Assembly: GCA_022562855.1 (NCBI GenBank)
Contig: JADFON010000028.1
Span: 1 to 12,068 of the forward strand
From: Candidatus Zhuqueibacterota bacterium
GTDB lineage: Bacteria; SM23-31
DNA length: 12,068 bases
Direction of reading: 5' to 3'
The notes beneath the pieces were generated by a model that was not told where the DNA came from, made no database searches, and was given only the letters and a program-made list of their open reading frames with translations. Within the stretch, counting starts at the first letter, position 1, and each line of letters opens with the position of its first letter. Below are positions 3,283 to 11,172 of the stretch, one piece after another. The position numbers were made by a program, and so were the translations under genes.

Positions 3283-4860
3283 TTAATGTATGTTCATTCT
3301 CAGCGGTTTACCGGCGAGAGTTCCATTATAAAGCCCGTTTTCAATCACGATATTCCCGTTTACGAATAATGTCATTATGCCTTCACTGTACTGGTGCGGC
3401 TCGGTAAATGTGGCTTTATCGGTAATTGTGTTCGGATCAAATACAATGATATCAGCCACAAATCCCTTTTTTAATAATCCTCTATCCTGCAAATCCAGCA
3501 GTTCTGCCGGTAATCCCGAAGAAGACCGGATAGCCTGTTCCAATGACAAGATTTTCTTGTCCATCACATAGGTGCGGATCTTTCTGGTAAAGGTACCGTA
3601 ACTTCGAGGGTGGGGAACTCCTCTTCCGAATTCAGGAACAGAACCGTCCGATGCGGTCATTACATATGGTTTTTGCATGAAATATTCCACATCGGCTTCC
3701 TGCATGTTAAAGGAGATAATTCCGGGTCCTCCGTTCATAACTAATTCTATAGCAGTATCAACCTCATTTTTGTTCAACTCTCTGCTAATCTCCAAAAGAT
3801 TTTTGCCTTCCCATTCGGGGTTTGTTCTATAAGAAGAAATTACAATGGTCTCAGGACCGCCCCTTCTGTCAATATTTTCCGCAACTTCTCTTTTGATTCT
3901 TTCTGAAAGTTCAGGATCCTTTAATCTGCTAATCATGCCGCCGCCTGCCTGAACCCAACGGGGAATCACTGCGGAAGAGAGACCGGTGCTCGAGGCGACA
4001 TAGGGATATTGATCGGCATAGACTTTTACGCCTCTTTGTTGTGCGTTTTCGATTATCCTGCAGATTTCCTCAGCCATGCCCCATACCGGTTTTCCAAGGG
4101 CTTTTATATGTGAAATTTCCACAGGCACCCCGGCTTTCTCTCCAACTTCGATCGCCTCTTCTATCGATGCCTTTAAGCCGGTGGAATAGTTGCTTTCATC
4201 CCTGATGTGGCTGGTATAAATTCCATCAAATTCGCCGACAACACGTGCAAGCTCAATTACTTCTTCAGTTTTTGCAAAACTACCCGGGGCATAAAACAAA
4301 CCGCTCGCTAATCCAACCGCACCTTCTTCCATACCCTTTGCAATTAGTCGTTTCATTTGCTCAAGTTCTTCCGGGGTCGGTTCACGGTCTGCCGATCCTA
4401 TCACTTCGCTTCTCACTCTTCCGTGACCGATAAGATGGATAACATTCAGACCGATTCCCTGTTCTTCAAGAGTAGAGAAATACTTTCCAACTTCATATGT
4501 CCCACTGCCGCAGTTACCCGTAACCACGGTGGTAACCCCCTGCATCAGGTAATTTTGCGCGCTTTTCAGGTCTGGGTTTGTGAGGTTTCTGTCGCAATGC
4601 GTATGGACGTCGATAAATCCCGGGGCAATGTATAATCCTTTGGCATCGATGGTAGTCAAACCTTGCGAGGCATCAATAGCGCCGATTTCCACTATGTAAC
4701 CTCCTTTTATACCGATGTTTGCCTCGTAAGGGCTCTCTCCCGAACCGTCATAAATCATACCACCGATTATCACTATGTCGTATTGTTGACTGCAATTGCT
4801 TGCAAGGAAAGCTAATGGAATCAATAATAGAAGGGTTAACAATTTGAATTTTCGCACCAT
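3283..4860 (-). CDS. N-acyl-D-amino-acid deacylase-type amidohydrolase, exported, probable lipoprotein
   Basis: D-aminoacylases hydrolyse N-acyl-D-amino acids to a D-amino acid and a carboxylate. This 525-residue protein has the metallo-amidohydrolase pattern: GFIDVHTHCD (His86, His88), Cys117 in TGNCGSG at the position of the zinc-bridging cysteine of D-aminoacylase, His218 in YTSHIRDES, His251 in EISHIKALG and Asp405 in TASDGS. YADQYPY (281-287) and the C-terminal NGNIVIENG are also typical. The set of ligands suggests an active enzyme. The N-terminus (MVRKFK, a Leu-rich core, then ASNCSQQ) is a type II signal peptide with Cys23 as the lipid site; Asn at -1 is atypical. Location in the periplasm or on the outer membrane is therefore likely. 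AAGGA lies three bases before the ATG. A role in recycling D-amino-acid derivatives from cell wall is a guess; related dipeptide or N-acyl hydrolases are alternatives. Confidence 0.9.
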   Translation of the reverse strand: MVRKFKLLTLLLLIPLAFLASNCSQQYDIVIIGGMIYDGSGESPYEANIGIKGGYIVEIGAIDASQGLTTIDAKGLYIAPGFIDVHTHCDRNLTNPDLKSAQNYLMQGVTTVVTGNCGSGTYEVGKYFSTLEEQGIGLNVIHLIGHGRVRSEVIGSADREPTPEELEQMKRLIAKGMEEGAVGLASGLFYAPGSFAKTEEVIELARVVGEFDGIYTSHIRDESNYSTGLKASIEEAIEVGEKAGVPVEISHIKALGKPVWGMAEEICRIIENAQQRGVKVYADQYPYVASSTGLSSAVIPRWVQAGGGMISRLKDPELSERIKREVAENIDRRGGPETIVISSYRTNPEWEGKNLLEISRELNKNEVDTAIELVMNGGPGIISFNMQEADVEYFMQKPYVMTASDGSVPEFGRGVPHPRSYGTFTRKIRTYVMDKKILSLEQAIRSSSGLPAELLDLQDRGLLKKGFVADIIVFDPNTITDKATFTEPHQYSEGIMTLFVNGNIVIENGLYNGTLAGKPLRMNIH

Positions 4861-9334: not shown

Positions 9335-10198
9335 ATGCCGGAAAAATCAAATCAATCCAAGTCACCGGTGGTCGTCGATTTGTCTATCGATGCGGAAATC
9401 GTCGCAAAGATATTGACCGGATTCATAAAAGACTGTTTTGATAAGACAAAAAGTAAAAAAGCTGTAATAGGACTGTCCGGAGGATTGGATTCTTCCATTG
9501 TTGCCTCTCTTGCTGTGAGAGGAATAGGTGCGCAGAAGGTGCTTGGTGTAATTTTACCCTACAAGCTAAGCGCAAAAGAAAGCAGGAACGATGCGGAAAC
9601 CATCGCGAATCTTCTTGGAATTCAAATTGAGATAATTGAAGTTACACCAATGGTTGACGCATTCGTTGAAAATTTTCCTGTTGACAATTCCGAACGTATC
9701 GCAAATGTTATAGCAAGACAGCGAATGATCGTATTGTATGATATTTCCGCACGTGAAAGCGGGCTTGTTTTGGGAACCAGCAACAAATCCGAACTGATGC
9801 TCGGTTATGGAACAATATTTGGCGACCTTGCCTCCGCTATCAATCCTGTAGGCGACTTGTACAAAACTCAAATGAGACAGTTAGCCGAATTCCTTGAGAT
9901 TCCGGCTACAATACGATCCAAATCTCCGACAGCCGACCTCATTGAGGGGCAAACAGACGAATCGGACCTTGGTTTTACCTATGACGAGGTTGACAGACTG
10001 TTATATCTCTGGGTGGATAAAAGATGCTCAGAATCCGATTTAGAGGATTATGGATTCGAAAGCGATTATATAAGAGATGTTATCATGCGTGTCCGCCGGA
10101 ATCATTTCAAAAGAATTCCACCGTTAATCGGGAAAATATCCGCGCGAACAGTAGGTCATGAATTCCGATATCCCTGGGATTGGTCAACCACAAATTAA
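9335..10198 (+). CDS. nadE: NH3-dependent NAD+ synthetase
   Basis: NadE makes the last step of NAD+ synthesis: nicotinic acid adenine dinucleotide is adenylated with ATP and amidated with ammonia. The 287-residue protein has the ATP-pyrophosphatase P-loop VIGLSGGLDSS (45-54), the GTSNKSELMLGYGTIFGD motif (147-164) and SPTADLIEGQTDESDLGFTYDEVD (197-220), all diagnostic of NadE. The glutaminase (nitrilase-like) domain of the larger NadE forms is absent, so free ammonia, or a separate amidotransferase, should be the nitrogen donor. There is no clear Shine-Dalgarno before the ATG at 9335. A TATAAT at 9313-9318 lacks a matching -35, so read-through from the aldehyde dehydrogenase promoter is more likely. 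Its placement next to an NAD(P)-dependent dehydrogenase is suggestive but not proof of a link. Confidence 0.96.
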   Translation: MPEKSNQSKSPVVVDLSIDAEIVAKILTGFIKDCFDKTKSKKAVIGLSGGLDSSIVASLAVRGIGAQKVLGVILPYKLSAKESRNDAETIANLLGIQIEIIEVTPMVDAFVENFPVDNSERIANVIARQRMIVLYDISARESGLVLGTSNKSELMLGYGTIFGDLASAINPVGDLYKTQMRQLAEFLEIPATIRSKSPTADLIEGQTDESDLGFTYDEVDRLLYLWVDKRCSESDLEDYGFESDYIRDVIMRVRRNHFKRIPPLIGKISARTVGHEFRYPWDWSTTN

Positions 10199-10237
10199 AC
10201 ACCGCTTTTAAATAATTTTCAATTAAAAAAATAAACA

Positions 10238-10351
10238 CAGTACTTTTGTATTTTCTACCATTTAGATGCTGAAATCCCAAAAAACAAGGGACCACTACGT
10301 TGCCCCTTATTTGAGGTTTCGGAATCTTTTTCAATAATTACAAAAGTACTG
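10238..10351. repeat. 114-base nested imperfect palindrome, MITE-like or structured RNA
   Basis: The 13-base ends CAGTACTTTTGTA (10238-10250) and TACAAAAGTACTG (10339-10351) are perfect inverted repeats. Inside, 10264-10278 pairs with 10313-10327 (11 Watson-Crick and 2 G-T pairs of 15), then 10282-10290 pairs with 10304-10312 (8 of 9), leaving a 13-base loop. The whole element can fold as one long hairpin with one large internal loop (13 against 11 bases). It fills the middle of the 242-base gap between nadE and rsmI, which holds no gene. A decayed miniature inverted-repeat transposon is the simplest reading; a structured RNA is the alternative. No T-run follows, so it is not a classical terminator. 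Confidence 0.6.
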
Positions 10352-10440
10352 ATATACAATTAGAAACAACCGGGCATTTGTTGAGTAAATACAAAAAATT
10401 TGTTGTCCCAAAATGAATAATTACCGAAACTTACCCACTA

Positions 10441-11172
10441 ATGAGCGATTCACGACATTTAAAGAGTGAAGATATAAAAAGCTCCGGAGCAGGTGGGACC
10501 CTTTATGTCGTTTCTACGCCTATAGGAAATCTTGGCGATATTACGCACAGAGCGGTAGAAACTCTGAAAACGGCGGATTTGATAGCGGCAGAGGATACGA
10601 GAAGAGCTTCGATTATTGCAAAGAAATTTGAAATTACAACACCGAGGCTTAGTTATCATGAATATAACGCACAAAAAAGAATACCGCAATTTCTTCGAAG
10701 GCTGAAGGCAGGAGAAAACATTGCGCTCATATCCGATGCAGGGACGCCGGGGATTTCGGACCCGGGGTTTAAGCTGATAAGAAATTGTATTGAAAAGGAG
10801 ATATCGGTAACAGCCATACCCGGAGCATCCGCTTTCCTACCGGCATTAGTGGTTTCCGGTTTGCCGACTGACCGGTTTGTTTTCGAGGGATTTTTGCCTG
10901 TCAAAAAGGGGAGGAAAACAAGGCTGGAATTCTTGATTAATGAGAAAAGGACTATAATTTTTTATGAATCTCCGCACAGGTTGCTGCGGACAGTCAAGGA
11001 TTTGTGTGAGTATTTTGGTGAGCGGCAATTGGTCATTGTAAGAGAACTGACAAAATTATACGAAGAAATCATACGGACTACGACAACAGATGCGGTTCAA
11101 TTATTAGAAAAAAGAAAATTAAAAGGTGAATTTGTTCTGGTTGTTCACGGCGCTCCAAAAAAATCAGGTTAA
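10441..11172 (+). CDS. rsmI: 16S rRNA (cytidine-1402-2'-O)-methyltransferase RsmI
   Basis: RsmI methylates the ribose 2'-OH of C1402 in 16S rRNA, in the ribosomal decoding centre, using S-adenosylmethionine. The 243-residue protein shows the tetrapyrrole-methylase fold of the family: TLYVVSTPIGNLGDIT (20-35), AAEDTRR (49-55), ISDAGTPGISDPG (97-109), TAIPGASA (124-131) and FYESPHR (174-180). It is shorter than E. coli RsmI (286), ending soon after FVLVVHGA, so the C-terminal extension is missing; shortened forms occur in other phyla. About 19 residues precede the conserved core, and no Shine-Dalgarno is seen before the ATG; an in-frame stop at 10414 rules out a much longer product. The next gene starts 43 bases downstream with no terminator between, so they are probably co-transcribed. 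Confidence 0.95.
   Translation: MSDSRHLKSEDIKSSGAGGTLYVVSTPIGNLGDITHRAVETLKTADLIAAEDTRRASIIAKKFEITTPRLSYHEYNAQKRIPQFLRRLKAGENIALISDAGTPGISDPGFKLIRNCIEKEISVTAIPGASAFLPALVVSGLPTDRFVFEGFLPVKKGRKTRLEFLINEKRTIIFYESPHRLLRTVKDLCEYFGERQLVIVRELTKLYEEIIRTTTTDAVQLLEKRKLKGEFVLVVHGAPKKSG

Follow-up and report, generated by a model that had tools for sequence, protein, structure and literature searches.

The 114-base palindrome at positions 10238-10351 of the window (the 12,068-nt stretch of DNA analysed here, contig C444 of its draft genome) is very probably an old MITE insertion between nadE and rsmI, with a target duplication of 7 bp. The element is real and belongs to a broadly familiar category, the bacterial MITEs: the family has terminal inverted repeats, is dispersed, short and multi-copy, contains no coding sequence, and makes a target duplication of fixed length. 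This accounts for the palindrome and corrects the reading of its target site from TA to 7 bp. It also provides a defined end sequence for tracking down the transposase that is missing in this uncultured bacterial class, and the palindromic modules found inside the MITE are a modest example of nested mobile repeats that lends itself to testing.

Structure of the window element

The first-pass annotation described a 114-base element with perfect 13-base terminal repeats and two further stems, and its coordinates, ends and nested stems were all verified. The perfect 13-bp inverted repeats (10238-10250 and 10339-10351) extend imperfectly to 16 nt, 15/16 of them paired. They form a left terminal inverted repeat at 10238-10253 (+ strand), where CAGTACTTTTGTA recurs across the genome, and a right one at 10336-10351 (- strand), with a right-end sequence common to copies C265, C420 and C83. 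The window contains a single perfect 13-bp inverted pair spanning no more than 130 bp; such a pair is rare for this base composition, since only 3/200 first-order Markov windows have one. Folds of both strands, alignment with copies C341 and C83, in which the modules are more complete, and module searches place the interior at 10264-10327, where an inner stem, GATGCTGAAA ... GTTTCGGAATC, is predicted around an AAGGG...CCCCTT stem. The sequences immediately outside the ends, ATAAACA (10231-10237) and ATATACA (10352-10358), are read as the left and right target-site duplication of this copy; they match at 6/7 positions and lie in the same register as the perfect 7-bp repeats around other copies. 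The neighbouring genes, taken from the ORF list and named as in the first-pass annotation, are nadE upstream (9335-10198, + strand; the element begins 40 bp after it) and rsmI downstream (10441-11172, + strand), whose homologues in relatives are 45-67% identical.

Copies in the same genome

The host genome is a 2.5 Mb draft of 491 contigs, 79.6% complete, in which about 20 elements with CAGTACTTTTGTATTTT ends and varied interiors were identified, a lower bound derived from targeted searches. BLAST against this genome, a check proposed in the first-pass annotation, recovers other copies (10 matches in 8 elements at E<=0.001). The 13-bp end with at most one mismatch occurs at 29 sites, against 3 for the reversed control, and a covariance model built from ten copies (R1) detects 12 places at E<0.01, of which ten are the copies it was trained on. 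Several copies (C244, C229, C81, C357:11423, C127, C392, C474 and C114) share only the ends and have other interiors. Lengths range from 49 bp (C318) to about 300 bp, and C318 and C90 (55 bp) are minimal copies with little interior. Two individual cases deserve mention. The G000:C244 copy (about 2780-2975) lies between direct repeats of 15 bp, AATTTAATTCAATAT, where 7 is usual. Contig G000:C293 breaks 32 bp inside an element (3710-3741), which would be expected had the assembly collapsed or omitted longer near-identical copies.

Ends and distribution in the class

Relatives of the same class contain dozens more copies, mostly 155-290 bp long, with the core RACTTTKGYAWWTTTT. The terminal inverted repeat has a consensus of about 19 bp, C-A/T-A/G-N-ACTTT-T/G-G-T/C-A-A/T-A/T-TTTT. 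Within an element the two ends covary (769 matches, where 691 are expected and 5000 shuffles reach at most 733), as would follow if a single transposase has to recognise both. Across the class the copies share these ends, are flanked by duplications and lack long reading frames; none of 39 elements selected by end motif lies inside an ORF of at least 150 aa. In the sister genus (G001) copies of 173-176 bp have the same ends, one of them with a perfect TCATAAA duplication, while in G004 and G005 numerous copies have the variant ACTTTGGYAAATTTT. Matches to a degenerate end motif number 25, 31 and 16 in G001, G004 and G005, where the reversed pattern yields 1, 6 and 2; in G002 and G003 the motif stays at background level. 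A stricter motif is present in 4/6 class genomes and in 0/54 genomes sampled outside the class. A scan of 84,980 species genomes with the pattern CAAGACTTTNGNAAATTTTGA found paired elements only in SM23_31 and CSMAG MAG records; matches elsewhere have no partner end and are hence attributed to chance, as are 28 single end matches in viral contigs, which include no convincing pairs. A literature search on the end sequences returned only unrelated items (primers, plant barcodes) among the matches listed. One copy in the sister genus, G001:C272:3413-3588, has its first 17 bp, CAGGACTTTTGTATTTT, tandemly repeated at one end; perhaps it was inserted into, or slipped within, its own end.

Target-site duplication

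For 14 copies of the host genome, the 7-mers outside the two ends were compared over all offset pairs and the register was taken as the best of 64. In this register, which begins four bases outside ACTTTTG, 67/98 positions match, against a mean of 45 for shuffled pairings, and 0/20,000 trials in which the right flanks were shuffled among the 14 copies reach the observed score. The scores form the ridge on the diagonal expected for a direct repeat. Because the register had been chosen from this same table, it was re-tested on the 39 further elements, picked by end motif alone and almost all from relatives. At the register of the first set, perfect 7-bp repeats flank 8 of the 39 (0.26 expected) and perfect 8-bp repeats flank 3 (0.10 expected). 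The flanking direct repeats are AT-rich, 7 bp long (sometimes 8) and far above chance in two separate sets. Examples of perfect 7-bp duplications are TTATCCT, TAAGTAA, TTTACTA, TTATTGT and TTTATAA. Two copies of the host genome, C403 (TTAGAAT) and C83 (CAAATAA), have perfect 7-mers in a register one or two bases away, and several copies show no duplication or one shifted by 1-2 bases.

These features suggest a short, gene-less and non-autonomous DNA transposon, both ends of which would be bound by a transposase supplied in trans. The enzyme would cut out or copy the element and join it to a 7-bp staggered cut in AT-rich intergenic DNA, and gap repair would then leave the 7-bp (sometimes 8-bp) direct repeat.

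Palindromic modules in the interior

The inner stems of the window element seem to be residues of small, separate palindromic repeats of the GATNCNGAAACAAGTTCNGNATGAC kind, which appear to exist independently in the class and to sit inside most such MITEs. Repeats of the GATNCNGAAACAAGTTCNGNATGAC type occur inside most copies and also alone. Copies such as C341 carry a pair of palindromes arranged head to head, GATGCTGAAACAAGTTCAGCATGACG and GTCATTCCGAACTTGTTTCGGAATC; the latter is the reverse complement of the former in diverged form, with changes that leave each hairpin paired. We infer from this arrangement that the window copy retains the outer halves of both palindromes around other sequence, which would produce the inner stem noticed in the first-pass annotation. 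Module variants (GATCC/GGATG, GATGC/GCATG, GATTC/GAATG) likewise preserve pairing. The module GAAACAAGTTCNGNATGAC was found in 5/6 class genomes and once in one other genome; it stands alone in G002 and often between terminal inverted repeats in G005. Copies in G001 hold another module, TTGCGAGGAGCG...GAAGCAATCTC, which also occurs on its own in the class. A literature search on the inner modules listed no papers. The repeat GATNCNGAAACAAGTTCNGNATGAC is itself dispersed in 5/6 class genomes, and its variants maintain hairpin pairing.

Such a distribution raises the question of which unit moves. The inner palindromic repeats could be the primary mobile units and the outer pair of terminal repeats only their preferred landing site, as might be suspected from the density of GTCATT-type modules, about ten times higher inside the MITEs (6.34 per kb) than in the flanks (0.66 per kb), from the presence of at least one in 31/39 elements, and from G002, where elements with terminal inverted repeats are essentially absent yet lone modules occur. 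However, the 7-bp duplications lie exactly outside the outer ends, indicating that the outer element moved as a unit, and the minimal copies C318 and C90 have little between their ends. We therefore regard this explanation as unlikely. The preferred reading remains a MITE delimited by the outer ends, whose modules may have nested as mobile units or been exchanged by recombination. The modules presumably resemble the Rickettsia RPE in being short palindromes scattered in genomes; they differ from RPE in that they are cargo in many copies of the MITE and no duplication can be assigned to them. RPE are themselves described as dispersed small palindromic repeats (PMC2229807).

Alternative functions and target sites

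A strong fold in the spacer of two codirectional genes could also be a structured regulatory RNA or a terminator kept for its RNA function. The whole element folds at -33.6 kcal/mol on the + strand (z -5.25) and -36.3 kcal/mol on the - strand (z -5.09), in both cases far better than shuffles. As 0/200 shuffles equal the fold on either strand, there is no strand preference. The first-pass annotation had concluded the same from its imperfect pairs; its count of two G-T pairs for each strand differs slightly from the predicted folds, in which the + strand has 2 G-U pairs and the - strand 5, but the meaning is unchanged. Rfam contains no match to the element, and promoter-like and terminator-like scans of the nadE-rsmI spacer are at chance level with no terminator-like site. 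In the sister genus the nadE-rsmI spacer of G001 is without such an element, which is consistent with an insertion later than the separation of the genera; with rsmI 67% identical, the nearest relative is too distant to show a strict empty site. Copies with varied interiors at many unrelated sites also argue against a conserved RNA, and this explanation appears very improbable. The proposal that this is a decaying mobile element and not a strand-specific RNA is borne out by the multiple copies, the covariation of their ends and the duplications that flank them.

A further candidate is an IS630/Tc1-type MITE with TA duplication, similar to RUP or Correia elements, which the first-pass annotation raised (predicted empty site CAGTACTG). 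TA occurs at the expected place in each end of the element, and many bacterial MITEs are of this type (PMC2229807), but the proposal is scarcely tenable: numerous copies whose sites have nothing in common retain the CAG...CTG outside this TA, the 7-bp repeats lie outside CAGT, and a profile search of the about 80% complete host draft with one family model, DDE_3 (IS630-type), gave nothing. Since CAGTAC recurs beside unrelated flanks, the TA lies inside the element.

Relation to known elements

Among described elements, MITEAba12, related to ISAba12 of Acinetobacter, is of comparable organization: it is about 113 bp long, AT-rich and gene-less, with 16-bp imperfect terminal inverted repeats and a fixed multi-base target duplication (9 bp) that is intact in only some copies (PMC6382973). 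The present family shares its size, imperfect terminal repeats, AT-richness, absence of genes and fixed duplication intact in some copies only. It differs in the length of the duplication, and the ends of MITEAba12 (GGCTTTGTTGC...) are unrelated to those of the present family; MITEAba12 has a known parent IS, and no parent IS was found here. RUP, Correia/NEMIS and ERIC have 5'-TA at their termini, and RUP has been tied to an IS630 element (PMC2229807). Like them, the present elements are short, have terminal inverted repeats and fold into long hairpins; unlike them, they have a duplication of 7-8 bp and TA is not the target. More tentatively, the data may reflect a class-wide MITE superfamily with 7-bp duplication. 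The transposase that moves it would belong to an IS group not yet recognised, and unrelated palindromic repeats would land repeatedly at the centre of the MITE, with the result that two kinds of small mobile repeat, each independent, travel together; we consider this possible rather than probable.

Search for an autonomous partner

Among the transposase families searched, in assemblies that are fragmented and 63-90% complete, neither an autonomous element with these ends nor a matching transposase was found. Assemblies of this kind commonly lose or break repeats of 1-2 kb. A DDE_Tnp_1 search of six class genomes revealed transposases, with ends that differ from those of the element, and the IS982 model gave nothing over the cut-off in the same six genomes. 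Near unpaired ends, no ORF resembles a transposase by eye. Larger elements bounded by the terminal repeats and containing a transposase were rejected, pairs beyond 400 bp having weak second ends. IS4 (DUF4372 + DDE_Tnp_1) was likewise rejected as a partner, its copies at G001:C92 and G005:C296 appearing to be bounded by AGTAGTGTCCGGT-like ends. The DDE_Tnp_1 transposase of the host genome (C75) is IS5-like.

A different MITE-like element, apparently with AGAGAGCGTTGCA-type ends, is located at G000:C53:5009-5121. A AGAGAGCGTTGCA-type sequence is also present upstream of the C75 transposase (7441), the only DDE_Tnp_1 found in the host genome, suggesting that the C53 element may be the MITE of that transposase.
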